From Chitinophagaceae bacterium (GTDB lineage: Bacteria > Bacteroidota > Bacteroidia > Chitinophagales > Chitinophagaceae), in assembly GCA_018061385.1 (NCBI GenBank), contig JAGOUF010000037.1, positions 1-10,615 of the forward strand: a stretch of 10,615 nucleotides of DNA, given 5' to 3'. Positions 1 through 10,615 of this stretch are shown piece after piece. The notes beneath the pieces are model-generated. The model saw nothing but the letters and a program-made list of their open reading frames with translations, searched no databases and was not told the DNA's origin. Position numbers and translations under genes: made by a program. How positions within the stretch are numbered: position 1 is the first letter of the stretch; every line of letters begins with the position of its first letter.

Positions 1-597
1 GTATTACTCATTGTAACAGTTTCTACTTTATTAATTGGAAATATTACCGCCGTTTTTCAACAATCGGTTAAACGTATGTTGGCTTATTCTAGTATTGCAC
101 AAGCAGGCTTTATGTTGTTTGCTTTGTATGCTAAAAACGATTTAGCTAAAGAAGGTATTTTATTGTATTCTGCAGCATATTCATTGGCAACCATTGGTAT
201 TTTTGCAGTATTAATTAAGCTTGAAGATCATAGCTATGAAGGCTACAATGGCTTAGCGAAATCCAGTCCTGTATTGGCTATTACATCAACTATATTTTTA
301 TTTTCATTGGCTGGTATTCCTTTAACTGCTGGCTTTTTTGCTAAATATTATATGTTGGCTGCTGTATTAAAAACTGGTGGAACTTTTGCAGTAACATTGG
401 TAATTATTGGTGTTTCGTTTGCAGCTGTAAGTGTGTATTATTACTTTAAAGTAATACAAGCTATGTATTTTAAAGAAGGCACACCAACCGTTATGCCTTT
501 TACAAATAGATTTAAATATGCGTTAATAGCATTGGCAATAATTATAATTGTATTGGGTGTTTATCCAGATGCATTATTGGGTTGTTTCTACTTTTAA
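1..597 (+). CDS. nuoN: NADH-quinone oxidoreductase subunit N, 3' part (5' end outside window)
   Basis: This is the C-terminal part (198 codons visible) of the antiporter-like membrane subunit N of respiratory complex I, which helps couple NADH:quinone electron transfer to proton pumping. The frame is open from base 1, so the start lies upstream. The segment reading VKRMLAYSSIAQAGF (visible residues 23-37) is the highly conserved helix motif of NuoN/MrpD-type subunits, and the following SLAGIPLTAGFFAKYY stretch (about residues 98-113) with its Pro, Phe and Lys is equally characteristic. Several hydrophobic helices follow, the last ending in GVYPDALL. Subunits L and M share the fold, but the short C-terminus right after the GVYP motif fits NuoN, normally the last gene of the nuo operon. 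That position agrees with the strong terminator about 20 bases downstream. Confidence 0.92.
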   Translation, partial: VLLIVTVSTLLIGNITAVFQQSVKRMLAYSSIAQAGFMLFALYAKNDLAKEGILLYSAAYSLATIGIFAVLIKLEDHSYEGYNGLAKSSPVLAITSTIFLFSLAGIPLTAGFFAKYYMLAAVLKTGGTFAVTLVIIGVSFAAVSVYYYFKVIQAMYFKEGTPTVMPFTNRFKYALIALAIIIIVLGVYPDALLGCFYF

Positions 598-614
598 TAT
601 CAACTAAAAATTTT

Positions 615-648
615 AAAACTCATCTATATTTTATAGATGAGTTTTTTT
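615..648 (+). terminator. Rho-independent terminator after nuoN
   Basis: A perfect 14-bp stem (615-628 with 632-645; core ACTCATCTATA / TATAGATGAGT) closes a 3-base loop and runs into a T-rich tail to 648. It lies 18 bases past the nuoN stop and would end the nuo operon transcript. The A/T flanks make it potentially active on the other strand as well, but no minus-strand gene ends here. Confidence 0.85.
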
Positions 649-780
649 ATGCAGTTCTTGTAAACAATACAATGGCAATTATCAAAAAATTAAACATCAT
701 TTGCACCAATCAATAAATTAATCCTATAAAATGTACATTTCTCTTTTATCTTTATTCAACCTAATTTTTAATTGAGTACA

Positions 781-2043
781 ATGACTATTACTGATTCTTT
801 TTTATTGGCATTTCGTACAGTTAAAGGCAATAAACTACGTACTGGCATTACGGTAACCATTATTGCTTTTGGCATCATGGCATTAATAGGTATTATTACA
901 GCTATTGAAGCCATGAATCAAAGCTTAAAAGAAAGTTTTTCTAGCATGGGAGCAAATGCATTTAGCATTCGATTTAAAGAATCCAATGTTCAATTTGGAA
1001 GAAAAAAAATAGAGAAATCTACAAAAGGGAAAGAAAAAAAATCGAATTTAGATAAAGTAATTAGAAAAGAAGATGCTGAATATTTTAAAGCCAATTATCA
1101 TTTTCCATCGTTGGTAAGTATTTATAGAAGAGGTGGAGGAGGAATAGATTGTAGTTATGAAAATAAAAAAACCAATCCCGTTACAACCATTTTTGGTGGC
1201 GATGAAAACTATTTAACTGTTAATGGATACAATATTGTACAGGGAAGAAACTTGAATAATTTAGATGTAAAAAGTGGTAGAAATGTTTGTTTAATTGGTA
1301 GCAGTACAGCTTTAAAACTATTTGGCGAAAACCCCGAAAAGCCTTTGGATAAAATTATTAGGGTTGCAGGAATACCTTACAGAGTAATTGGCGTTTTAAA
1401 AGCAAAAGGATCTAGTGGTTTTTTACGACAAGATGATGTGGTGATTTCTTCATACACCAATATTTCTCGTTTACAAACAGCATCATCTTCTTTTTTAATT
1501 GGTGTAATGGTAAACAATGTTGTAGAATTAGATGTTGCTACAAGTGAAGCTACAGCTGTGTTTAGAGCTGTAAGAAAATTAGAACCAATTGATGCCGATA
1601 ATTTTGCAATTGAAAAAAGCGACAAGTTTGCCGAATTGTTTATTGGGTTTTTAAGCAGTATTACTGGTAGTGCAGGTGCTATTGGAATGATTACTTTAAT
1701 TGGTGCAGCCATTGGGTTAATGAATATAATGTTGGTGGCAGTAAACGAACGTACAAGAGAAGTTGGATTAATAAAAGCAATAGGAGGCAAGAGTAGTAAT
1801 GTAAGGCAACAGTTTCTGTTTGAAAGTGTAATTATTAGTTTAATGGGTGCTTTTTGTGGTATCGTTTTAGGAATTTTAGTGGGAAATATATTTGCCTCTT
1901 TTTTAAATACAGGTTTTATAATTCCTTGGAACTGGGTTTTTGCGGGGATAATAATTTGTAGCTTAGTTGGGTTATTGGCTGGAATTTATCCTGCAATGAA
2001 AGCTGCTAAACTAAACCCAATTGTTGCATTAAGGTATGAGTAA
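781..2043 (+). CDS. ABC transporter permease, FtsX/MacB family
   Basis: A 420-residue inner-membrane permease of the MacB/LolC (FtsX-like) type. Such proteins pair with an ATPase and act on substrates at the periplasmic face rather than carrying them through a classic channel. Order: short cytoplasmic N-terminus, TM1 at about 22-44, a large periplasmic MacB_PCD-like domain (about 45-295), then TM2 (about 298-321), TM3 (about 346-372) and TM4 (about 384-404). The segment NERTREVGLIKAIGG (322-336) is the conserved FtsX coupling region, and AAKLNPIVALRYE is a standard C-terminus. Residues 70-97 are unusually lysine-rich. A TTG at 772 would add three residues; the ATG at 781 is preferred. No ATP-binding partner is in the window. 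It converges with the PorP/SprF gene, with only 8 bases between the stops. The substrate cannot be told from sequence. Confidence 0.9.
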   Translation: MTITDSFLLAFRTVKGNKLRTGITVTIIAFGIMALIGIITAIEAMNQSLKESFSSMGANAFSIRFKESNVQFGRKKIEKSTKGKEKKSNLDKVIRKEDAEYFKANYHFPSLVSIYRRGGGGIDCSYENKKTNPVTTIFGGDENYLTVNGYNIVQGRNLNNLDVKSGRNVCLIGSSTALKLFGENPEKPLDKIIRVAGIPYRVIGVLKAKGSSGFLRQDDVVISSYTNISRLQTASSSFLIGVMVNNVVELDVATSEATAVFRAVRKLEPIDADNFAIEKSDKFAELFIGFLSSITGSAGAIGMITLIGAAIGLMNIMLVAVNERTREVGLIKAIGGKSSNVRQQFLFESVIISLMGAFCGIVLGILVGNIFASFLNTGFIIPWNWVFAGIIICSLVGLLAGIYPAMKAAKLNPIVALRYE

Positions 2044-2051
2044 AGTAAGTT

Positions 2052-3065
2052 CTAAAACTTAGGGCAATGAATATATTTATCAGTATTGGGTCTTCGAATA
2101 TAAATAAGAGAAATCTCAATTCCACCTCTGTTTACACTTGCAGTTTTTAATGAAGATGTGTTGATATCGTAAGTTGCACCAAACCTAAAATCGTCAAATT
2201 CTAAACCAATATAAGGGATAATGGCATCTTTAAAACGCAACCAAGAACCAGCATAAAAGCTAGTTGGTTTTTCAGCACCTTCGCCACTTACATTAAATTG
2301 AAGTGCAGTACCCAAAACAGTTTCATTGGCACCACCTTGCATACTATGCAATGCACTAACATGTAAAGTTGTAGTAGACCCAATGCCAAAATATCCACCA
2401 CCATGTATAGTAGTTCTTGAGTTTAATAAATAATTGGCACCAGTAAATACTTGTTTAGGGCGTGTAATATGATACATACTTACACCCAAATAATAATTGT
2501 TTCTATCGTTGCTACTGCCTGTGTATAAAACCCCTGCATTCAAATCGATATAATTTGATTTTAGGGCAGCAGGGTTGCTAAAAATTTCAGAAGTTACGCC
2601 TGTAAAACCTGCAGTAGTTAATTGATCTTCAAATTTTAAACTAGTGGTATTAATTAGCATATTGGCATACGTTGCTTGAAAGCCAACACCAATTTGACTG
2701 TAACCATCTTCATCTAACCCTTTGTGAAATGCAGTTGAAACAGATGCATAATTAAATTTAACTGCACCATTTGCACTAGCATCGCTATAAGCCATCATGC
2801 CAACACCCCAAGTATCTGTATAGCCAATATTTTTTTGCATTATTTGAAAGTCAACAGAAGCTGTATTGGTTACATAAGCTCTATTAATTTCGGGCCATTG
2901 ATTTCTGTAATTACCAGCAACCCTAACTGTGCCATTAAACTTACCAGTAAATGCAGGATTTAATGTTAGTGGAGAAGCAAAAAATTGAGAAAAGTGTGGA
3001 TCTTGAGCTTGTACAAAACTACAACCAAGTAGAAAGAATAATATAAAAATTGATACGTGCTTCAT
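2052..3065 (-). CDS. PorP/SprF family type IX secretion-associated outer-membrane protein
   Basis: A 337-residue protein of the Bacteroidota-specific PorP/SprF family, predicted outer-membrane beta-barrels linked to type IX secretion and, in gliding species, to export or anchoring of adhesins. Residues 1-20 form a signal peptide with likely cleavage after VQA, giving the family's hallmark mature start QDPHFSQFFASPLTLNPAFTG (21-41). The body has many aromatic-rich beta segments (such as GGYFGIG and FYAGSWLRF), a GLEFDDFRFGATYD block, and the typical C-terminal Cys-Pro-Lys-Phe. Length is normal for the family. LLGC in the signal resembles a lipobox, but the conserved AQ|D junction makes signal peptidase I processing more likely. 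It stands alone: no large repeat adhesin or other gld/spr/por gene is adjacent, so it is probably one of several paralogues, and its partner cannot be named. Confidence 0.93.
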   Translation of the reverse strand: MKHVSIFILFFLLGCSFVQAQDPHFSQFFASPLTLNPAFTGKFNGTVRVAGNYRNQWPEINRAYVTNTASVDFQIMQKNIGYTDTWGVGMMAYSDASANGAVKFNYASVSTAFHKGLDEDGYSQIGVGFQATYANMLINTTSLKFEDQLTTAGFTGVTSEIFSNPAALKSNYIDLNAGVLYTGSSNDRNNYYLGVSMYHITRPKQVFTGANYLLNSRTTIHGGGYFGIGSTTTLHVSALHSMQGGANETVLGTALQFNVSGEGAEKPTSFYAGSWLRFKDAIIPYIGLEFDDFRFGATYDINTSSLKTASVNRGGIEISLIYIRRPNTDKYIHCPKF

Positions 3066-3173
3066 TGTAAAAAAGAGATACCGAAAATAAGGGAAATGCT
3101 CCTATAAAATGGATACTGTGAATGTTTTAACAAAAAAAGAAATGACTTATTGGAAAATGATTGACAAATAATT

Positions 3174-3437
3174 TTATTTTTTAAAAGTTAGTTTAAAATA
3201 AATAAGCAATGCACTGAGCAACATAATAATTCCATTGCAAATAATTACTGGTATTAGGTGTAAACTAAAACCATATACTAGCCAAATAATGGTACTTGTA
3301 AAAACAATTAACATCATGCTTAGGCTTAAATCGCCAGCACTTTTCATTTTCCAAGTTTTATATACTTGAGGCATAAATGTAATGCTGCTTAAAAAAGCAC
3401 CGATTAAACCCATTATTTCCACTAGCTCTTTGCTCAT
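3174..3437 (-). CDS. SemiSWEET-type sugar transporter (PQ-loop / MtN3 family)
   Basis: An 87-residue protein with three predicted membrane helices (about 6-25, 37-57, 62-83), the size of bacterial SemiSWEETs. These dimerise in the inner membrane to make a facilitative sugar channel. The PQ motif is at 23-24 in FMPQVYKTWK. Trp52 and Asn68 have the same 16-residue spacing as the Trp/Asn pair lining the sugar pocket in characterised SemiSWEETs. The ATG at 3437 is chosen because the upstream in-frame start at 3467 is a GTG that would add a polar 10-residue extension before the first helix. It lies between the DUF3467 terminator and the PorP/SprF gene, with about 110 bases to the latter, so co-transcription is possible but not shown. 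The family assignment is firm; the substrate is inferred from the family only. Confidence 0.88.
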   Translation of the reverse strand: MSKELVEIMGLIGAFLSSITFMPQVYKTWKMKSAGDLSLSMMLIVFTSTIIWLVYGFSLHLIPVIICNGIIMLLSALLIYFKLTFKK

Positions 3438-3471
3438 ATTTTTTAAATTGATATTAAAGATAATCACAAAT

Positions 3472-3507
3472 AAAAAACCTCTAGCATTTAAGTATGGTAG
3501 AGGTTTT
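3472..3507 (-). terminator. Rho-independent terminator after the DUF3467 gene
   Basis: A 10-bp stem pairs AAAACCTCTA (3474-3483) with TAGAGGTTTT (3498-3507). Inside it a 3-bp CAT/ATG extension follows one G-G mismatch, leaving a 6-base loop. On the minus strand the 3' arm runs into six T residues. It sits 17 bases past the stop of the DUF3467 gene and just upstream of the SemiSWEET start, which argues that the two are separate units. Confidence 0.8.
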
Positions 3508-3523
3508 AAAATAAATTGGTTGT

Positions 3524-3835
3524 TTATGCTTGTGCAGTTGGACCTCCAAAATTCATTGGAATTTCAACTTGTTCTAAATCTTGTATATGGCCATGTGCAG
3601 CTTCATAACGTTCTATATTTTCGGTCATTGCTTTCATAAATCGTTTGGCATGCATGGGTGTAAAAATAATTCTACTTTTTACTTTACTTTTTGGTGTGCC
3701 AGGCATTACGTTTACAAAGTCTAAAACAAACTCTGCATGGCTATGTGTAATTATGGCTAAGTTGGCATAAGTTCCTTCAGCTACTTCTTCTGTAATTTCA
3801 ATATTTAATTGATTGTTTGGTTGTTGTTGTTCCAT
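3524..3835 (-). CDS. DUF3467 domain-containing protein
   Basis: A 103-residue soluble protein filling the whole DUF3467 family length. The recognisable core is residues 17-80: EEVAEGTYANLAIITHSHAEFVLDF, then VMPGTPKSKVKSRIIFTP, then HAKRFMKAMTENIERYEAAHG. The start (MEQQQPNN) is polar and low in complexity and the tail (NFGGPTAQA) is flexible. There is no signal peptide or membrane helix, so it is cytoplasmic. No biochemical function is established for the family. From memory, in many Bacteroidota this gene sits directly behind rpoC, suggesting a link to transcription; here it is away from rpoBC, between DUF4293 and SemiSWEET genes. A terminator follows it, and a 14-base tandem repeat lies just upstream of its start. 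Confidence 0.88.
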   Translation of the reverse strand: MEQQQPNNQLNIEITEEVAEGTYANLAIITHSHAEFVLDFVNVMPGTPKSKVKSRIIFTPMHAKRFMKAMTENIERYEAAHGHIQDLEQVEIPMNFGGPTAQA

Positions 3836-3842
3836 TTAATTA

Positions 3843-3898
3843 TGTTGAATGTTTAATGTTGAATATTTAGTGTTGAAGTTTTAAGGTTGAGTACTAAG
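3843..3898. repeat. 14-base tandem repeat, four degenerate units
   Basis: Four consecutive 14-base units: TGTTGAATGTTTAA (3843-3856), TGTTGAATATTTAG (3857-3870), TGTTGAAGTTTTAA (3871-3884) and GGTTGAGTACTAAG (3885-3898). Each unit looks like two related heptads. The array fills most of the gap between the DUF4293 stop and the DUF3467 start, immediately upstream of the latter's ATG on the minus strand. Role unknown. Confidence 0.75.
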
Positions 3899-3953
3899 TT
3901 TAAAAAAGAAACACAAAACTTACACCCCATAACTTGCCACACACCCTTCTACC

Positions 3954-4376
3954 TTACCTCAATCTATCTACACTTTTTATCAATTGCTCATCTTTCCAAA
4001 TGGCTCTTGCAGCCAACAATATCAATGCAGGAATAATGATTGCAACAATTGCTGTAATGCTAATTTTACCTTCGGCAGGAATGAATTTTTTTATTTGAAG
4101 ATAGTAAACAAATAAATTGAGTAACGATAATGCAAAAGCTGCAATGGTTAATTTCAATTGCAGTTTTCTATCCTTATATAAAAAAATAATGATTAAAGAT
4201 GCAACAGCCAATGCAACAGTAAGAATCATTAAAATAACATGACTCATGCCGTTTAATTCTTCAAATGTTTTTATATTATCTACATATTTATTGCCACTAA
4301 AAAAAGATAATTTTAAAGTAATAAAAGCTGCTGCACTTGCAGCCAAAAGCCAAATTGTTTGTATACGTTGTAACAT
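3954..4376 (-). CDS. DUF4293 family integral membrane protein
   Basis: A 140-residue inner-membrane protein with four predicted helices (about 5-25, 45-67, 74-92, 106-124) joined by short loops. The start MLQRIQTIWLLAA and the short positively charged tail are typical of the Bacteroidota DUF4293 family, and the length matches. No catalytic motif is visible and the family has no established function. It lies downstream of glyA on the same strand, separated by about 90 bases of heptad repeats with imperfect hairpin potential, so co-transcription with glyA is uncertain. The ATG at 4376 opens directly into the first helix and has no better alternative. Confidence 0.82.
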   Translation of the reverse strand: MLQRIQTIWLLAASAAAFITLKLSFFSGNKYVDNIKTFEELNGMSHVILMILTVALAVASLIIIFLYKDRKLQLKLTIAAFALSLLNLFVYYLQIKKFIPAEGKISITAIVAIIIPALILLAARAIWKDEQLIKSVDRLR

Positions 4377-4380
4377 AAAA

Positions 4381-4469
4381 AAGGTTTAAGGTTTGAGGTT
4401 TGAGGTTGAAGGTTGAAGGCAACTTATACTTTTAACTTTTGCCTTTTACCCTTTGCCTTAACTCTTTAA
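4381..4469. repeat. Heptanucleotide tandem repeat in two complementary arms
   Basis: Six 7-base units on the left (AAGGTTT, AAGGTTT, GAGGTTT, GAGGTTG, AAGGTTG, AAGGCAA; 4381-4422) are followed after a short gap by pyrimidine-rich heptads (ACTTTTA, ACTTTTG, CCTTTTA, CCCTTTG, CCTTAAC, TCTTTAA; 4428-4469). The second array is roughly the reverse complement of the first, so the transcript could fold into a long imperfect hairpin just after the glyA stop. It resembles short tandemly repeated repetitive (STRR) sequences of other bacteria. It may serve as a transcript end for glyA, but that is inferred. Confidence 0.7.
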
Positions 4470-5746
4470 CCCAATTCTGGATATAAATTAAATTGATGCA
4501 TAAACTCATTTACACTGGCTTTTGTTTTAGAAAGTACACTTGCGTCATCTGCATTCATTAAAGTTGTATCAATAGCATCTACAACAAAATTCATGTGTTC
4601 TTCTTTCATTCCTCTTGTTGTAATTGCAGCAACACCAAACCTAATGCCACTGGTTACAAAAGCACTTTTGTCATCGTAAGGAACCATGTTTTTATTAGCA
4701 GTAATATCGGCATGCCCCAAAGTAATTTCAGCTTTTTTACCACTAATATTTTTGTTACGTAAATCAATTAACATTAAATGATTATCAGTTCCACCACTAA
4801 TAATATTGTAACCTTTATTTACAAAAGCTTTTGCCATTGCTTGTGCATTGCTTTGTACTTGCTTTGCATACACAGTAAATTCATCTGTCAAAATTTCGCC
4901 AAAGGCAATTGCTTTACCAGCAATTACATGTTCTAATGGGCCACCTTGTGTACCAGGAAAAACAGCCATATCTAATAAATGGCTCATCATTCTAATATTT
5001 CCTTTTACATCTTTTAAGCCAAATGGATTTTCGAAATCTTTACCCATCATAATTACGCCACCTCTTGGACCACGTAAAGTTTTATGTGTAGTTGATGTTA
5101 CAAAATGACAGTGATTGAAAGGAGAAGACAACAATCCTTTTGCAATTAATCCTGCAGGATGAGCAATATCGGCCCAAACAAAAGCACCAATTTCATCGGC
5201 AACTTTTCTAATTCTTGCATAATCAATATCTCTACTATAAGCACTAGCACCACAAATAATAACTTTTGGCTTTACTTCACGGGCCTTGGCTTCCAACATT
5301 TCATAATCAATTAAACCTTCTTCTTTTGTTACACCATAAAAATGTGGTTTGTATAATTTACCACTAAAATTTACAGCAGCACCATGTGTTAAATGACCAC
5401 CCATACTAAGGTCTAAACCTAATATATCATCACCAGGTTGTAAAATGGCCAACAACAATGCAGCATTGGCTTGTGCACCACTATGAGGTTGAACATTTGC
5501 ATATTCAATTCCAAAAACTTCTTTCAATCTATCAATGGCCAATTGTTCAGTTTGGTCAACAATTTCGCAGCCACCATAATATCTACGACCAGGATAACCT
5601 TCAGCATATTTATTGGTCATTACGCCACCCATGGCTTGCATTACTTGCAAACTGGTAAAATTTTCAGATGCAATTAATTCAATACCCCTTCTTTGTCTTA
5701 ATAATTCTTGATGAATAAGATCGAAAACCTGAGTGTCTCTTTGCAT
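4466..5746 (-). CDS. glyA: Serine hydroxymethyltransferase
   Basis: A 426-residue cytoplasmic PLP enzyme that interconverts serine plus tetrahydrofolate with glycine plus 5,10-methylene-tetrahydrofolate, the main one-carbon source of the cell. Family blocks are present in order: IELIASENF (22-30), [15 protein letters not shown] (45-59), [11 protein letters not shown] (84-94), GHLTHG (117-122), [11 protein letters not shown] (191-201), the PLP-lysine motif [14 protein letters not shown] (217-230, Lys222), and [11 protein letters not shown] further on. No catalytic residue is missing. An in-frame ATG at 5794 would add 16 residues, but [11 protein letters not shown] is the normal N-terminus. The promoter at 5802-5831 would start transcription only a few bases before 5794, so 5746 is the better start, leaving a leader of about 50 bases. 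The leader shows no clear riboswitch. Confidence 0.97.
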
Positions 5747-5801
5747 GATATTTTCTTTACAATTTAGTAGATGGCTGAGTAATGTAAAACTCATTGAGTT
5801 G

Positions 5802-5831
5802 CAAATTTAACCGTTACGAGTTTGTAAGCAA
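5802..5831 (-). promoter_or_regulatory. Bacteroidota-type promoter for glyA
   Basis: On the minus strand, TTG (5831-5829) is followed by exactly 19 bases and then TAAATTTG (5809-5802), a perfect match to the -33 TTG / -7 TAnnTTTG consensus of Bacteroidota housekeeping sigma factors. The expected transcript start near 5797 gives glyA a leader of about 50 bases. Confidence 0.65.
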
Positions 5832-5887
5832 TGTTTTGTTGAGATTGTTTTTCATAGAAGCTCAACTGTATAATATAAATGAGCAGC

Positions 5888-5959
5888 AGTCCTGCTTTTC
5901 ACTGCAAGTCCTCGCCATTCGTTCCTCATAGCTGTGGGCTTTTCGTTGCAATCAGGGCT
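5888..5959. repeat. 72-base interspersed repeat with inverted ends (AGTCCTG ... CAGGGCT)
   Basis: The unit opens with AGTCCTGC and closes with CAGGGCT, terminal inverted repeats with one wobble. Inside are two direct copies of CTTTTCNNTGCAA (5895-5907 and 5939-5951; the variable pair is AC in one and GT in the other) around a CATTCGTTCCTC core. From memory, similar GC-richer elements (cagtcctgc...atcagggct) recur between genes in many Bacteroidota genomes. Only one copy is in this window, so repetitiveness rests on recollection. It lies upstream of glyA and beside the CCACCCC palindromes and does not look protein coding. Confidence 0.55.
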
Positions 5960-5994
5960 AGGTTTTGAGCTGTAGTAACACAGAAGAAGATGAA

Positions 5995-6140
5995 CCACCC
6001 CCTAGCCACTCTTCCATGGAGGGGAATTGGTTGCTGCTATTCTGTGGTCGTTTGTTGTTTTCGGTATTCTCATTTACCTCTTGAGTAGTGTTTGATGTTG
6101 TTGGGTTCTCATTCCCCTCCTTTGGAGGGGTTAGGGGTGG
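5995..6140. repeat. Composite palindromic element 1 (CCACCCC ... GGGGTGG ends)
   Basis: A left palindrome (5995-6030, centred on CCATGG, ending GGAGGGGAATTGG) and a right palindrome in inverted orientation (6112-6140, ending GGGGTTAGGGGTGG) flank about 80 bases beginning TTGCTGCTATT. The spacer is closely matched at 7491-7570, so the whole unit is one family member. Its right end supplies the last codons of the DUF559 gene. The minus strand stays open here (reading PPLTPPKEGN...NQFPS), the same phase as in element 3, but this is most likely repeat-derived rather than a separate gene. Flanks (TGAA left, TTGT right) show no target duplication. Confidence 0.8.
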
Positions 6141-6555
6141 TTGTCTCTCCAAACTCTTTTACAATATAATTTTCCAACAATTCCAGTACGTCTAATATTC
6201 TTAGTTTAACTTCTCCATCGGTTGTTCTAAATACTTTTAAACCTAAACTTTCTAAAAACAATTGTCTTGTTGCATCGTATTCAACTTTACCTTCATGACT
6301 AACACCATCAATTTCTACAACCAACCCCAATGCTTTAACATAAAAATCTACAATGTAGTTTCCAATAATTCTTTGTCTATCGAAATCGATATTATGAAAC
6401 TGTTTGTTTCTGACTTGTTGCCAAAATAATACTTCACTGTAAATACCAGCTTTTCGTTTTTCTTTTGCAAGTTGTTTTAAGGTTGAGTTGTAGGGTAGTT
6501 CTTTTACAAAATTTCGTTTAATAACAGTGCCATTTATGGTTGTTAGTATCTCCAT
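6109..6555 (-). CDS. DUF559 domain endonuclease-like protein (Vsr-like fold)
   Basis: A 148-residue DUF559 protein, a family placed with PD-(D/E)xK / very-short-patch-repair-like nucleases. The signature runs ELPYNSTLKQLAKEKR (19-34), YSEVLFWQQVRNKQF (39-53), FDRQRIIGNYIVDFYVK (58-74), then VVEIDGVSH (79-87), RQLFLESLGLKVFR (97-110) and a final helix DVLELLENYI. Likely catalytic or metal-binding residues are Asp70, Glu81, Asp83 and His87, all present. The family normally ends around residue 135; here the tail ETTTPNPSKGGE is encoded by the right arm of composite element 1, so the original stop was replaced by repeat sequence. The gene is bracketed by inverted palindromes (6112-6140 downstream, 6589-6619 upstream). 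Its substrate and role are unproven; a partner for the repeats is an inference. Confidence 0.87.
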   Translation of the reverse strand: MEILTTINGTVIKRNFVKELPYNSTLKQLAKEKRKAGIYSEVLFWQQVRNKQFHNIDFDRQRIIGNYIVDFYVKALGLVVEIDGVSHEGKVEYDATRQLFLESLGLKVFRTTDGEVKLRILDVLELLENYIVKEFGETTTPNPSKGGE

Positions 6556-6586
6556 ATTTTGTTTTTTATTGTAGTTAATTTTTCTG

Positions 6587-6619
6587 AACCACCCCTAACC
6601 CCTCCATGGGAGGGGAATT
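6587..6619. repeat. Palindromic unit upstream of the DUF559 gene
   Basis: The near-perfect palindrome ACCACCCCTAACCCCTCC then ATGGGAGGGGAATT. Its orientation is opposite to the copy at the 3' end of the DUF559 gene, so the gene lies between inverted copies. It lies 31 bases before the DUF559 start codon and is therefore probably in or near its leader or promoter. It also forms the left end of the 6589-7182 repeat-dense stretch. Confidence 0.85.
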
Positions 6620-6820
6620 TGTATCGCATGTTTTTTAAGGCTTTCGTTTGTGTTTTTCTACTTTTAAAAGTATGAAATTGATTGCTAATATTTTAAATGT
6701 TTCTAGTTTTTTGTGTTTCTTATTCTCGTCCATGGGAGGGGAATTAGTTACTGCTGCTTTTATTTTTTTCAAATAAATCTATTTCTTATTCTTTATAAAA
6801 GGAAGGCAATTGGTTACTAT
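6609..6820. repeat. 212-base direct repeat, copy 1
   Basis: Matches 6909-7120 at 208 of 212 positions by direct reading, with differences at 6712, 6744, 6746 and 6757 and no gaps. Both copies open in the right arm of a palindrome (GGAGGGGAATTTGTATCGC), contain the perfect palindrome CTTTTAAAAG, carry an internal right-arm relic (CCATGGGAGGGGAA) and end at GGAAGGCAATTGGTTACTAT, itself a decayed right arm. No convincing open reading frame is present; this part of the 634-base gene-free gap between the DUF559 and methylase genes is repeat DNA. Confidence 0.92.
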
Positions 6821-6862
6821 AGTTTTGAAGTGAGCAATGAGTTTTTTTTGTGTTAGGGAATG

Positions 6863-6919
6863 AACCACCCTTAACTCCTCGCATGCTTGCAGCTTGGTTT
6901 GCAACAAAGGAGGGGAATT
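6863..6919. repeat. Palindromic unit, 57-base extended-loop variant (copy 1)
   Basis: AACCACCCTTAACTCCTC on the left and GGAGGGGAATT on the right are separated by an extra GCATGCTTGCAGCTTGG...TTGCAACAAA segment that can form its own TTGCA/TGCAA stem. The same 57-base layout recurs at 8297-8353 with about six substitutions, so this is a defined subfamily. It sits in the 88-base spacer between the two 212-base direct repeats. Confidence 0.85.
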
Positions 6920-7120
6920 TGTATCGCATGTTTTTTAAGGCTTTCGTTTGTGTTTTTCTACTTTTAAAAGTATGAAATTGATTGCTAATATTTTAAATGT
7001 TTCTAGTTTTTCGTGTTTCTTATTCTCGTCCATGGGAGGGGAAATGGTTACTGCTGTTTTTATTTTTTTCAAATAAATCTATTTCTTATTCTTTATAAAA
7101 GGAAGGCAATTGGTTACTAT
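6909..7120. repeat. 212-base direct repeat, copy 2
   Basis: The second copy of the 212-base unit, offset by exactly 300 bases from the first with four substitutions. The junctions fall inside palindromic right arms (GGAGGGGAATT) at the left end, which suggests duplication by recombination or slippage between neighbouring palindromes. Downstream, 7121-7153 resembles the composite-element spacer and leads into the palindrome at 7154-7184. An open frame across this copy (reading FPSFGGARGGW at its end) is judged a repeat artefact. Confidence 0.92.
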
Positions 7121-7153
7121 TATTCTGTAGTAATTTATTTTCTGTGGTTCTTA

Positions 7154-7184
7154 TTCCCCTCCTTTGGAGGGGCTAGGGGTGGTT
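7154..7184. repeat. Palindromic unit at the 3' end of the methylase gene
   Basis: TTCCCCTCCTTTGGAGGGG followed by CTAGGGGTGGTT, the right-hand orientation (GGGGTGG outward). It starts six bases past the stop of the methylase frame (7190-7192 on the minus strand), so it may act as its transcript-end hairpin. It closes the repeat-dense stretch that opened at 6589. Confidence 0.85.
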
Positions 7185-7189
7185 GGTAT

Positions 7190-7729
7190 TTACACCCTCA
7201 AAAAACCTAACTCATACACCATTGGTTGTAGCTTTTCTGTTAAAGCTTTATAGGCTTCTTCAAATGGTTTAAAGTTTACTGGTGCATAATCTCCACTGGC
7301 GTTTCTTGCTTGTAATGCTTTGCGTATTTGATACCAACCTACATCACTTCTATTTAGTTTTAATTCTTCTCTTACTGTGTGTACATCGGTATTTGTAAAG
7401 TAAGCTTGCCATAATAATTTGCCTTGGTTTAATACATTGATTGCTTCTTTACTTAAACCACCCCTAACCCCTCCAGGGGAGGGGAATTGGTTGCTGCTAT
7501 TTTGTAGTGGCTTATTGTTTTCGGTATTCTCACACACCTTTTGAGTAGTGTTTGATGTTGTTGGGTTCTCATTCTCTTCCTTTGTGTGGGTTGTGGTGTT
7601 GGCATTGTTCCCCTGATTTGCAGATGCTGTGGTGCTTGCATTATTCCCCTCCACTGGAGGGGTTAGGGGTGGTAAATCTACCAAATACCTCACCATAAAA
7701 TCACTCTCAAATCTTTCAGGACTACCAAC
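7190..7729 (-). pseudogene. C-terminal part of the restriction-modification gene, cut off by an in-frame stop
   Basis: This stretch continues the frame of the upstream methylase gene directly after its TAA (7732-7730). It reads GSPERFESDFMVRYLVD, then a repeat-encoded stretch, then LSKEAINVLNQGKLLWQAYF, HTVREELKL, VGWYQIRKALQARNASGDY and finally YELGFLRV before a stop at 7192-7190. The non-repeat parts read like the conserved C-terminus of large type II-like methylase proteins (acidic and aromatic-rich, ending near LGFLR), so the two pieces were one polypeptide. Codons from 7672 down to 7458 encode 72 residues of Asn/Thr/Ser-rich, low-complexity sequence derived from composite element 3. A start at the ATG at 7696 (MVRYLVDL) would give a 168-residue separate protein, but that start would fall in mid-domain. 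Either a pseudogene fragment or, less likely, a split gene. Confidence 0.75.
7458..7672. repeat. Composite palindromic element 3, in-frame insertion with TTTA duplication
   Basis: A 215-base unit with CCACCCCTAACCCCTCC at the left and GGAGGGGTTAGGGGTGG at the right. On the minus strand it is flanked by TTTA on both sides (7676-7673 and 7457-7454). Element plus one TTTA is 219 bases, exactly 73 codons. Removing it restores a smooth ...RYLVDLSKEAINV... junction. The first part of its interior (7491-7570) matches the spacer of element 1, and 7571-7607 holds a decayed palindrome. It stays open in the frame of the host gene. Confidence 0.88.
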
Positions 7730-9877
7730 TTAATCTTCTGTAAAAGGTATAAAATGATTGACGATACTCCATTGTTTATTGTTCCATTCTAAATTATTGG
7801 CACTAGCTGTTAGGTTGCTGCCATTGAATAACATCCATAGTAAACAATCGCTTTTAAACTCGTTGCTTAATGGTTGTGTGGGTTGCAAAAACTGGTCTCT
7901 ATCGTTGAGCCAGGTGGGTTTTACTAATCTTCTCACAGAAAAAATAATGGCTATTTCACAAAGATTTTCTTCATTAATAAAATAACCTCTTGCACTGCCA
8001 TATCCTGATGAAAATATTACAGTTTGTATGCCTGAGTGTTGTAAGTCATTTCCACCACTTAACATATAACCAATTGCATTATTAGACCATTTGGTACCTC
8101 TTAAATCTTTTGTTGCTGTTGCTGGAACAATTGCATTTTTTAATGGAATAACTTCTGTTTTATTTGTCTTCGGTCTTTCAATCCAGTTCGTTAATAATTG
8201 TTTATTTGGAATATTGTAAAATGTTTTTTCTCCAATTGGATTTGCATTTTTATCTAATACTTCTGTTAGGATTTCTTTTATTGGTGTTTTGTTTTCAACC
8301 ACCCCTAGCCCCTCCCATGCTTGCTGCTTGGTTTGCAACATAGGAGGGGAATTGCGAAGTGGGTTGCTTGTTTTCCAAATTAAAAAACCAATGGGAAAAT
8401 TTCCTTTTAGTCCGTCAAATCCTTTGCTATGAACAACAAATCCTCCTAAATATTTTGCACTCCAATTATCCCTAAATACATCAAGTGTTGGTGAAATAAC
8501 ATATTTCAAAGTGCTAAACATTGCTAAAGTTGCAGTAGGGATTTCCTGTGCTACTCTTGTTACAAATTGAGTGTATAATTCATTGCTTGCCTTGCCATAT
8601 TTTTCCATAGCATTTGCAGCAAATTTTGTTTTAGCGACTCCAGTTTTATTTTCTGGATTTTCTTCACCAATACCAGTATTATCAGCATTCGTAGCTTCCG
8701 CATAAGGCGGATTAATCAACACTAAAATTTTCTTGCCTTCTTTAATGGCTTGTTGTAAAGTAGCAGGTATTTTATTGGTTAGGGTATAATCTATTTGTCC
8801 AAAATCATTTATATCATCATTCAAATAATCGTATTGAAATCTTGTTGCTGCTACACAGGTTTTGGTGGCTTTCATTACATCTACATCGGCAACATCTAAT
8901 GTGCTCATAAATATATTGCGTTGGTTGCTATGCTTTACTTCTAGGTTGCCAACACCACAACACATATCCCAAACTATATACTCTTTTTGCCAATTTTTGC
9001 CTAAGGTTTCTGTTAGTTTATCGTAGGCTTTATCTACCACTGCCAATGGTGTGTAGTAAGCACCTTTAAAACTACGTTCGTCAATTGGTATCAAGCTGTC
9101 TCTACGTTCTAGCAAATAATTTCTATATTCTTGTTTTGGTGGTCTATGGTAAATTGCCCAAAATTGTCGGTAACCTTCTTTGCTGCCCAATTCATAAATT
9201 TTGCCACCCAACATAAACACAGGTTGGTTGTTTTTGTGCAATAATTCGGCTGGTAAATTATCGTGTGTACTTATATTTCCATCACTCATTATATCGGCAA
9301 AAAATAAGAGTGCATAATCTTCTGCTGCTATGCCTTTTATTTCTTTACCTATCATTACCACCCATTTATCAAACACTTGTTTTAAATTGTCGGGTGTAAT
9401 TTGTGTTCTTATAATATCGCCACTTTTAATGGCATTTTTTATGGTTTGTATAAACTCATCTTCGTGGGTTTCTATTTTAAAACTTACTAGGTAAGTACCA
9501 ATGTATGCACTTACAACATCTAATGCTTCTTGTGTGTAACCACTGGCACTTTTGCCCCATTTTATGGGTTGCTTTTTATTGCTTATTAAAGGCAACGCAT
9601 CGGCAGTTTTCATAATGGCTGCCTTTTTGGTATCTATTACACATAAAAAAGGTGGCACATCTTCGCCATTGTTAAAAGCTTGTTGTACATAGTGCAGCAA
9701 TTGTGTAAACATTTGGTAAGTGCTGTGCTTATAACCATCTTTTGCTTCAAACCAAATTTCTTTAGTTTGTATATCTATTAAATTTTTGCTATAGCTTTTT
9801 AGTCCTAATGCTTTTATATAAGCATCTTTTACATCTTCTTCGGTTTGGGCTTGTAATAATTTGCTGTAAAGACTCAT
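7730..9877 (-). CDS. Type IIG-like restriction-modification protein (nuclease plus N6-adenine methylase), 3'-truncated by a stop
   Basis: A 715-residue protein that appears to fuse a nuclease and an adenine-N6 DNA methylase. The N-terminus (1-100) reads LIDIQTKEIWFEAKDG, with Asp35, Glu44 and Lys46 fitting a PD-(D/E)xK endonuclease centre. A helical linker (about 110-265) precedes the methylase: SAM-binding KGAYYTP (271-277) and VWDMCCGVGNLE (302-313), then catalytic INPPYAEA (388-395) and the GGFVVHSKGFDG block. Residues from about 530 on form the presumed target-recognition region. Residues 509-528 (NSPPMLQT...EGLGVV) are encoded by a palindromic repeat at 8297-8353, an in-frame insertion after the methylase core. 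Translation ends at FTED with TAA, yet the frame continues for 179 more codons (see 7190-7729). Catalytic residues are intact; whether the truncated product works is unknown. No separate specificity or nuclease gene is nearby. Confidence 0.85.
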   Translation of the reverse strand: MSLYSKLLQAQTEEDVKDAYIKALGLKSYSKNLIDIQTKEIWFEAKDGYKHSTYQMFTQLLHYVQQAFNNGEDVPPFLCVIDTKKAAIMKTADALPLISNKKQPIKWGKSASGYTQEALDVVSAYIGTYLVSFKIETHEDEFIQTIKNAIKSGDIIRTQITPDNLKQVFDKWVVMIGKEIKGIAAEDYALLFFADIMSDGNISTHDNLPAELLHKNNQPVFMLGGKIYELGSKEGYRQFWAIYHRPPKQEYRNYLLERRDSLIPIDERSFKGAYYTPLAVVDKAYDKLTETLGKNWQKEYIVWDMCCGVGNLEVKHSNQRNIFMSTLDVADVDVMKATKTCVAATRFQYDYLNDDINDFGQIDYTLTNKIPATLQQAIKEGKKILVLINPPYAEATNADNTGIGEENPENKTGVAKTKFAANAMEKYGKASNELYTQFVTRVAQEIPTATLAMFSTLKYVISPTLDVFRDNWSAKYLGGFVVHSKGFDGLKGNFPIGFLIWKTSNPLRNSPPMLQTKQQAWEGLGVVENKTPIKEILTEVLDKNANPIGEKTFYNIPNKQLLTNWIERPKTNKTEVIPLKNAIVPATATKDLRGTKWSNNAIGYMLSGGNDLQHSGIQTVIFSSGYGSARGYFINEENLCEIAIIFSVRRLVKPTWLNDRDQFLQPTQPLSNEFKSDCLLWMLFNGSNLTASANNLEWNNKQWSIVNHFIPFTED
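8297..8353. repeat. Palindromic unit, 57-base extended-loop variant (copy 2), inside the methylase gene
   Basis: AACCACCCCTAGCCCCTCC, then CATGCTTGCTGCTTGG...TTGCAACATA, then GGAGGGGAATT. It has the same length and layout as 6863-6919 with about six changes. It spans 57 bases, exactly 19 codons, and is read through on the minus strand as NSPPMLQTKQQAWEGLGVV. It is a single unit, without the second inverted palindrome seen in composites, and no clear target duplication is visible. Confidence 0.88.
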
Positions 9878-10327
9878 ATATAATTTTTGTTGCCGTAATA
9901 GTTGTTACAAAAAATAAATATACATAGATGTTATTAAAAGTAGAATGTAGTTGTGGCTAGAGAAAAAATTGATTAAATAATAGTTGATCAATTTCTCGTT
10001 TGTTGAAATTATTTTTTAGAAAATTATTGGCTTATTGTGATGTAGACAATAGGAAAAATGTTTTGAACCTAGGCAATATTAATGAACAAATTTTACCCTT
10101 TATCTAAAGCATTTTAGTGTGCCCAATTAAACAAAAAACTATATCTAAACATAGAAAAGTTATGCAAAAAAACTACGAATAATTATTTTTTAAATGGTTT
10201 CTTAAATTGCCTGTTAATGTTAAATACTTCTTTAAATACTAAATTTTGTTATTTTCACACTCCCAATTAAAGCAAGTGTGTTAACATTGGTATGGTGTGG
10301 TGGAAATTGGGAATAAAGAAAACATCA
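9878..10327. other. 450-base AT-rich divergent intergenic region
   Basis: This is the gap between the divergent methylase (minus) and nucleotidyltransferase (plus) genes. No convincing small gene was found. It holds an AT-rich inverted repeat (AAATTGAT 9966-9973 with ATCAATTT 9987-9994) and the decamer CCCAATTAAA twice (10122-10131 and 10262-10271). A possible -7-like TAAATTTTG lies at 10240-10248, one base longer than consensus and without a well-spaced TTG. The last 70 bases before the plus-strand gene can form a pseudoknot-like structure, reported separately. Promoters for both genes should lie here but none matches the consensus cleanly. Confidence 0.5.
10256..10312 (+). other. Possible pseudoknot or structured leader before the nucleotidyltransferase gene
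   Basis: CACAC (10256-10260) can pair with GTGTG (10276-10280), while TCCCAATT in that loop (10261-10268) is perfectly complementary to AATTGGGA (10305-10312), 15 bases before the ATG. The two pairings cross, as in an H-type pseudoknot. The stems are short, so chance is possible; no known riboswitch family is recognised. Confidence 0.3.
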
Positions 10328-10615
10328 ATGAAAGCAATTATTCCAGTAGCTGGTGCAGGTACAAAACTTCGCCCTCATACATATACTCAACCCAAGGCAT
10401 TAATACCAATTGCAGGTAAAACAATCTTAAGTTTTATTGTAGATCAATTACATGAAGCTGGCATTACAGAGTTTGTTTTTATTGTGGGTTATTTGGGCGA
10501 AAAAATTCAAGATTATGTACATCAATCTTACCCAAATTTAACTACACATTTTGTGTATCAAAATGAACGTCAAGGTACTGGCCATGCAATAGAATTAACC
10601 AAAAGCATTGTTGGC
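10328..10615 (+). CDS. Sugar-1-phosphate nucleotidyltransferase, 5' part (3' end outside window)
   Basis: The first 96 codons of a nucleotidyltransferase that would transfer a nucleotide from an NTP to a sugar 1-phosphate, making NDP-sugars for envelope polysaccharides. The N-terminal Rossmann-like start MKAIIPVAGAGTKLRPHT (1-18) carries the nucleotide-binding GxGTxLRP loop, and QPKALIPIAGKTIL (21-34) carries the conserved PKxLxP lysine. GYLGEKIQDYV (54-64) and the QNERQGTGHAI block (78-88), which contacts the base and sugar, complete the usual N-terminal order. Lys13 replaces the Arg of the usual GTRL. Glucose-1-phosphate thymidylyl- or uridylyltransferase are the closest types, but the missing C-terminus prevents a substrate call. 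The ATG at 10328 is the natural start. Confidence 0.87.
   Translation, partial: MKAIIPVAGAGTKLRPHTYTQPKALIPIAGKTILSFIVDQLHEAGITEFVFIVGYLGEKIQDYVHQSYPNLTTHFVYQNERQGTGHAIELTKSIVG

Follow-up and report, generated by a model that had tools for sequence, protein, structure and literature searches.

A DUF559 nuclease gene between inverted hairpin repeats as a candidate selfish unit in Bacteroidota

In a 10,615-nucleotide stretch of DNA from a Chitinophagaceae bacterium (assembly GCA_018061385.1, contig JAGOUF010000037.1, positions 1 to 10,615; hereafter the window), a gene of the DUF559 family lies between two inverted copies of a short C-rich hairpin repeat and ends inside one of them. What ties a nuclease-like gene to such palindromes? 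Comparison with other genomes leads us to lean towards the view that this gene and the hairpins on either side of it make up a single selfish element of some 0.5 kb, in which the nuclease would break DNA at hairpins and the unit would be copied in by repair.

The gene (6109..6555, minus strand, 148 residues) is the sole gene of the element. Its open reading frame (ORF) matches the PF04480 profile with 88.8 bits against a curated cut-off of 20.6, which places it in DUF559, and the AlphaFold2 model of its product has a mean predicted local distance difference test score of 86.6. Among solved structures, those closest to the predicted fold are a Neisseria DUF559 protein and the homing endonuclease I-Bth0305I; this homing endonuclease among the nearest solved folds goes beyond the initial annotation of the locus, as do the related units inside essential genes described below. 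One hairpin copy stands on the 5′ side of the gene (6587..6618, plus strand) and the other on its 3′ side (6111..6142, minus strand), each with its head towards the gene. The two are inverted, 32 nt each, 94% complementary and spaced 444 nt apart, with the form AACCACCCCTAACCCCTCC-nnn-GGAGGGGAAT. As read from the sequence and the ORF translation, the stop codon (6109-6111) reaches into the 3′ copy, and the last codons, for TTPNPSKGGE, lie within it. The initial annotation had described a DUF559 gene bracketed by inverted palindromes and ending inside one, and this arrangement is confirmed; the palindrome-encoded C-terminus is also real, at about 10 residues rather than the 12 proposed. Its likening of the geometry to that of REP-associated tyrosine transposase (RAYT) genes, which sit between inverted repetitive extragenic palindromes (REPs), agrees with what we find, namely inverted hairpin flanks around a PF04480 gene instead of a Y1 HUH gene.

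The window holds five exact stems (CCCCTCC-n2-5-GGAGGGG) and six exact heads, and neither occurred in 200 dinucleotide-preserving shuffles. Single-strand folding of the two 32-mers is modestly better than that of their own shuffles (z scores of -1.35 and -2.13), so that the case for the repeat rests on recurrence instead. Allowing up to two mismatches, the head occurs nine times in the genome of the window (2.84 Mb, 80% complete), and six of these fall at 6124-8315; the repeat is therefore a local island in this genome and not widespread.

Does the pairing recur elsewhere? The exact 18-base head is found at 19 places in 5 of 195 genomes of the family, and DUF559 in 95 of the 195, including all five with the exact head. 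Four of the 19 heads flank a DUF559 gene, two of them in the window and two, in identical geometry, in a genome of another genus (G133). For a broader view we scanned named genomes, which gave 243 confirmed relatives, and kept the best 80. Matched inverted flanks (inverted-repeat score of at least 13 in 220-base flanks) border 67 of these 80 genes, as against 5 of 680 control positions from the same loci. A stem with at most one mismatch lies within 200 bases of the gene at 77 of the 80 loci and on both sides at 61. Stem density falls from 8.6 per kb at 0-100 bases from the gene to 1.07 at 100-250 bases and 0.008 at 5-10 kb, a drop of about 1,000-fold. Upstream copies are on the minus strand in 67 of 69 cases, and downstream copies on the plus strand in 54 of 69 (11 minus, 4 unclear). 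Where both ends could be set (65 of the 80 loci), the unit measures 492-709 bases and occupies 15 distinct flank contexts. The ends in these relatives are often made of two hairpins, AATTCCCCTCC-nnn-GGAGGGGTG followed by a variable second hairpin and then GGGGTGGTT. By comparison, then, gene and hairpins are physically linked in a fixed geometry, and the enrichment of the repeat beside DUF559 genes that the initial annotation had predicted is present.

The repeats also leave their mark on the proteins. Repeat-type peptides stand at a protein end in 70 of the 120 best homologs (by a pattern made after looking at them), and 24 of the 120 have HP as their last residues, which fits a stop codon provided by the repeat head. 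At locus L146 and in genome G266 (C1:2788352 and 2788913) two DUF559 genes follow one another about 560-570 bases apart, as if the whole unit had been duplicated. In other phyla, we found matches in 40 records of a plasmid collection; among the first 13 fetched, inverted flanks of score 13 or more were present in 9, compared with 9 of 260 control positions. The genes in these records lie between sufB and sufC, between transhydrogenase subunits, and between paaD and paaZ.

The number of hairpins in a genome is higher where the gene is present, a relation that the initial annotation had put up for testing. We examined 118 genomes of Chryseobacterium, the genus of locus L112, taking a DUF559 match of 69-90 bits as a window-type gene. 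In the 65 genomes with such a gene the median is 10 stems and no genome is without one; in the 53 genomes without the gene the median is 2, and 17 of them have none. This difference holds after subtraction of the two flanks (p = 5e-6, by a statistic that ignores kinship). In a hairpin-rich genome with 28 stems, the 15 copies that we read are mostly single units of about 60 bases.

Hairpin type follows nuclease type as well. Among 178 non-identical DUF559 domains (counts that ignore relatedness) we distinguished hairpin A, with the stem CCCCTCC, from hairpin B, with the stem CCCCTCTCC and similar ones. The 86 domains of the FDRQR type, to which the window's enzyme belongs, are accompanied by hairpin A in 81 cases, by neither in 5 and by B in none; the 83 domains of the xRRQ type have A in 4 cases, B in 36 and both in 1. 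Nine unclassed domains have A in 2 cases, B in 1 and neither in 6. Genomes G133 and G044 hold both nuclease types, each with its own hairpin, and four genomes of the Chryseobacterium group (G384, G336, G438, G411) hold an FDRQR gene with hairpin A and an xRRQ copy without a hairpin.

Presence and absence of the unit can be compared within a single region between two conserved Chryseobacterium genes, for which 59 loci were available, some genomes being represented twice. The unit lies in the plus orientation at 30 loci and in the minus orientation at 16. Nine loci show a gene-free gap of 160-437 bases: three contain one hairpin (L183, L193, L209), one is decayed (L208), two hold degenerate traces (L203, L205) and three have no repeat (L185, L188, L212). 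The remaining four comprise a unit missed by the motif (L211) and three loci with other sequence between the genes (L094, L080, L084). Divergence between the flanks of plus-oriented and minus-oriented units means that these insertions share a region and not provably the same base.

Units related to that of the window also stand in frame inside host genes, namely those for LeuRS (two insertion sites), MetRS, MetH and chorismate synthase. At the first LeuRS site, the stretch from NWIG to TTRPDTIFG spans 34-43 residues in six loci and 171-258 residues, with a DUF559 domain, in nine others. Occupied and empty states of one site are thus found both in LeuRS and in the Chryseobacterium region; for the window, relatives offer only the absence of a whole island. 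DUF559 splits a Pfam match in two in one example each of MetRS, the MetH activation domain, acetyl-CoA synthetase, chorismate synthase and a Type ISP enzyme. In three window-type loci (L056, L060, L066) the reading frame continues into a Type ISP gene. In the HsdR gene of locus L026 (ORF 106-3318), GIY-YIG and DUF559 domains are both inserted, two nuclease types in one host gene.

We propose the following course of events. The DUF559 protein, predicted to be an endonuclease or nickase of the Vsr / I-Bth0305I fold, would recognise hairpin repeats, whether these are the ends of its own unit or solo copies, and break DNA at them; host repair would then copy the unit into the broken site, with the hairpin arms serving as homology. 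Loss of the middle of a unit would leave one hairpin, and solo hairpins may be non-autonomous copies or scars of this kind. Units or hairpins that keep the reading frame could survive inside genes. The occurrence of both orientations in one region would be expected in such a scheme, as a palindromic target reads alike from either side. That the unit moves, that its enzyme recognises and cuts hairpins, and that repair copies the unit are all suggested by these genomic patterns.

Several observations weigh against this proposal. The few flank contexts in Chryseobacterium could reflect old, mostly vertically inherited insertions, and single-hairpin alleles may be either targets or scars. Repeat-rich genomes lacking DUF559 genes, which the initial annotation had held to speak against a repeat-nuclease partnership, do exist in part: 22 of the 53 Chryseobacterium genomes without a window-type gene hold at least 5 stems, against a strict dependence on the gene, and 17 of these 22 have no DUF559 match of 30 bits or more, so that solo hairpins persist without it. 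Neither tested hairpin accompanies 42 of the 83 xRRQ domains. Eight standalone xRRQ genes of the Chryseobacterium sample (L234, L237, L239, L241, L244-L247) lack matched flanks and appear to be fixed at a single locus; all precede the same gene (MKFGQVEDP...), and such hairpin-less genes are possibly domesticated copies. The ends of the element are not uniform either, since heads point outward in 13 of the 14 in-gene domains with heads found alongside, the reverse of the inward heads of standalone genes. In an E. coli record the C-rich hairpins lie on one side only, directly 3′ of ycjD, and in a Neisseria gonorrhoeae record similar hairpins on both sides are direct, not inverted. When the sapF-ycjD-fabI locus of E. 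coli (L182, L229) is used as a query, at least 80% of it is covered in 3333 of 5426 E. coli genomes; E. coli 'box C' repeats have been described near fabI. These points limit the partnership that had been suggested, which is otherwise strongly supported at the genomic level by enrichment, copy number, subtype matching and a RAYT-like geometry.

The main competing explanation is homing of the ordinary kind, directed at allelic sites, in which the enzyme cuts empty alleles at its own insertion sites, gene conversion proceeds between alleles, and the hairpins are tolerated ends or hitchhikers. We regard this as unlikely, if clearly the most serious alternative. Both in sequence (E = 0.0036) and in fold, I-Bth0305I ranks with the nearest solved structures, many insertions lie in conserved genes, and the host sites are clustered on a tree of 77 DUF559 domains, built from few columns and with many forks unresolved, where the ten host labels need 23 changes and shuffled labels 43 on average. 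Yet these sites appear to have been switched repeatedly: labels change within supported clades, for example those of LeuRS sites 1 and 2 and of chorismate synthase (on few columns). The tracking of nuclease subtype by hairpin subtype, and the numerous solo hairpins where the gene is present, also speak against homing. It seems to us improbable that the hairpins owe their movement to a different enzyme, for instance a Y1 HUH transposase (RAYT), with DUF559 genes as passengers between two copies. PF01797 does occur in 17 of 19 searched genomes with such repeats or genes (G133 and G195 being apparently the same genome), but G181 and G207 have no match, and the stem is absent within about 1.5 kb of all four Y1 loci fetched, which together make a Y1 transposase unlikely as the sole driver. 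The genome of the window has a single PF01797 match, of 24.6 bits and on a different contig, and the recurrence of one gene family between subtype-matched repeats would be hard to obtain by chance capture. Slightly more improbable still is that nothing here is now mobile, the gene encoding a Vsr-like repair enzyme that benefits its host and the GC-rich border hairpins acting as terminators, insulators or recombination hot spots. The Caulobacter DUF559 protein VsrA is reported to be tied to a cytosine methylase and the SOS response (PMC12907096), and some standalone copies look fixed; insertion events are nevertheless needed to explain in-frame inserts in unrelated essential genes, a region that may lack the gene or keep one hairpin, and units between the normally adjoining sufB and sufC.

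The surroundings of the unit in the window are rich in further copies. The unit lies in an island (5859..10305, no strand assigned) that is missing from six of nine further genomes of the genus; in these six the gene at window positions 10306-10615 comes within 0.14-0.37 kb after glyA. In the other three we found no match to this right-hand gene. The island edges are not hairpins, so that for the DUF559 unit alone the window offers no clean empty site. A degenerate hairpin copy, read from the sequence, lies at 5993..6028 (plus), a copy with a long insert in its loop at 6863..6919 (plus, repeat family D4), another copy at 7153..7184 (minus) and a degenerate one at 7571..7602 (minus, repeat family D2, 76%). 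Duplicated tracts span from hairpin copy to hairpin copy. The tract 6018-6132 recurs at 7478-7592 with 88% identity, and a tandem duplication (6609..7131, family D1, no strand assigned) consists of 6609-6831 and 6909-7131, 96% identical, each starting at the right arm of a plus hairpin. An N6-type DNA methyltransferase-like ORF (7730..9877, minus) has a weak PADLOC match to MTase_II (E = 0.00046). It stops at an in-frame TAA (7730-7732), from which the frame runs on to 7190; a relative of 849 residues is open at this position, and intact relatives exist. By repeat comparison and ORFs, hairpin copies are in frame in the C-terminal part of this gene at 7456..7487 (plus) and 7643..7673 (minus), and a copy with a loop insert lies in frame inside it at 8296..8353 (plus). 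At this last site, only 4 of 120 homologs have a stretch of at least 23 residues, which in two of the four includes hairpin-type peptides; the length in most homologs is 10-12 residues. At the same two methyltransferase sites, relatives P0155, P0167, P0196 and others carry other repeat-type peptides (SLRGTKQS, RHCEERSN-like), a hint of another repeat family that shares this liking for in-frame sites.

Short palindromic repeats are common in bacterial genomes, and the large class of CGTC-tagged REPs has been reported without a dedicated transposase (PMC3733652). A nuclease family of uncharacterised function that travels with matched hairpins offers a concrete candidate enzyme-substrate pair, gives DUF559 a likely role and accounts for odd in-frame inserts in essential proteins; it is also a caution that a peptide encoded by a repeat in a predicted protein can mark an insertion. 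The enzyme may account for scattered hairpin repeats too. With some reserve, we suggest that DUF559 and C-rich hairpins could constitute a separate and very widespread class of mobile element, in which a Vsr-fold, homing-like enzyme targets its own palindromic ends, enters genes in frame without splicing and has seeded a large superfamily of hairpin repeats, until now without an enzyme, in Bacteroidota, Proteobacteria and Deinococcus.

Known systems share parts of this picture; in the literature searched, with partial coverage that is no proof of absence, we found no account of DUF559 with such hairpin repeats. The Vsr endonuclease (1cw0) and Caulobacter VsrA have a known or proposed role in mismatch repair at methylated cytosines, not in repeat mobility (PMC12907096). 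The I-Bth0305I homing endonuclease family (3r3p) shares the catalytic fold, as predicted here, a weak sequence similarity and the nature of a selfish nuclease gene, but no intron or intein surrounds the DUF559 gene, and its unit, which has no splicing domain, is read through in frame. Rickettsia palindromic elements are likewise in-frame palindromic inserts inside protein genes, a likeness drawn by description, with no nuclease gene tied to them in the extract concerned (PMC3733652). CGTC-tagged REPs, described there as palindromes starting ATTCCC, also come from Bacteroidetes and have intragenic copies, and CCCCGTC occurs in several related two-hairpin units, a likeness again by description; the stems here are instead C-rich, and the window copies have no CGTC tract. 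A close parallel is with REPtrons, REPs together with RAYT (TnpA-REP): according to PMC3733652 and PMC8266576, these too have a nuclease gene flanked by inverted pairs of short palindromic repeats, scattered solo copies and copies inside genes, and repeats that can concentrate near a recently arrived gene, as reported for Marinomonas. Unlike them, the enzyme here is a PD-(D/E)xK protein of predicted Vsr-like fold, by its PF04480 match, and not a Y1 HUH transposase, and the consensus has no GTAG tag, the window copies reading GGAGGGGTTAGGGGTGG beside the stem. Judged from sequence, the DUF559-hairpin unit appears to work like a REPtron while departing from it in two features, the Y1 enzyme and the GTAG tag.
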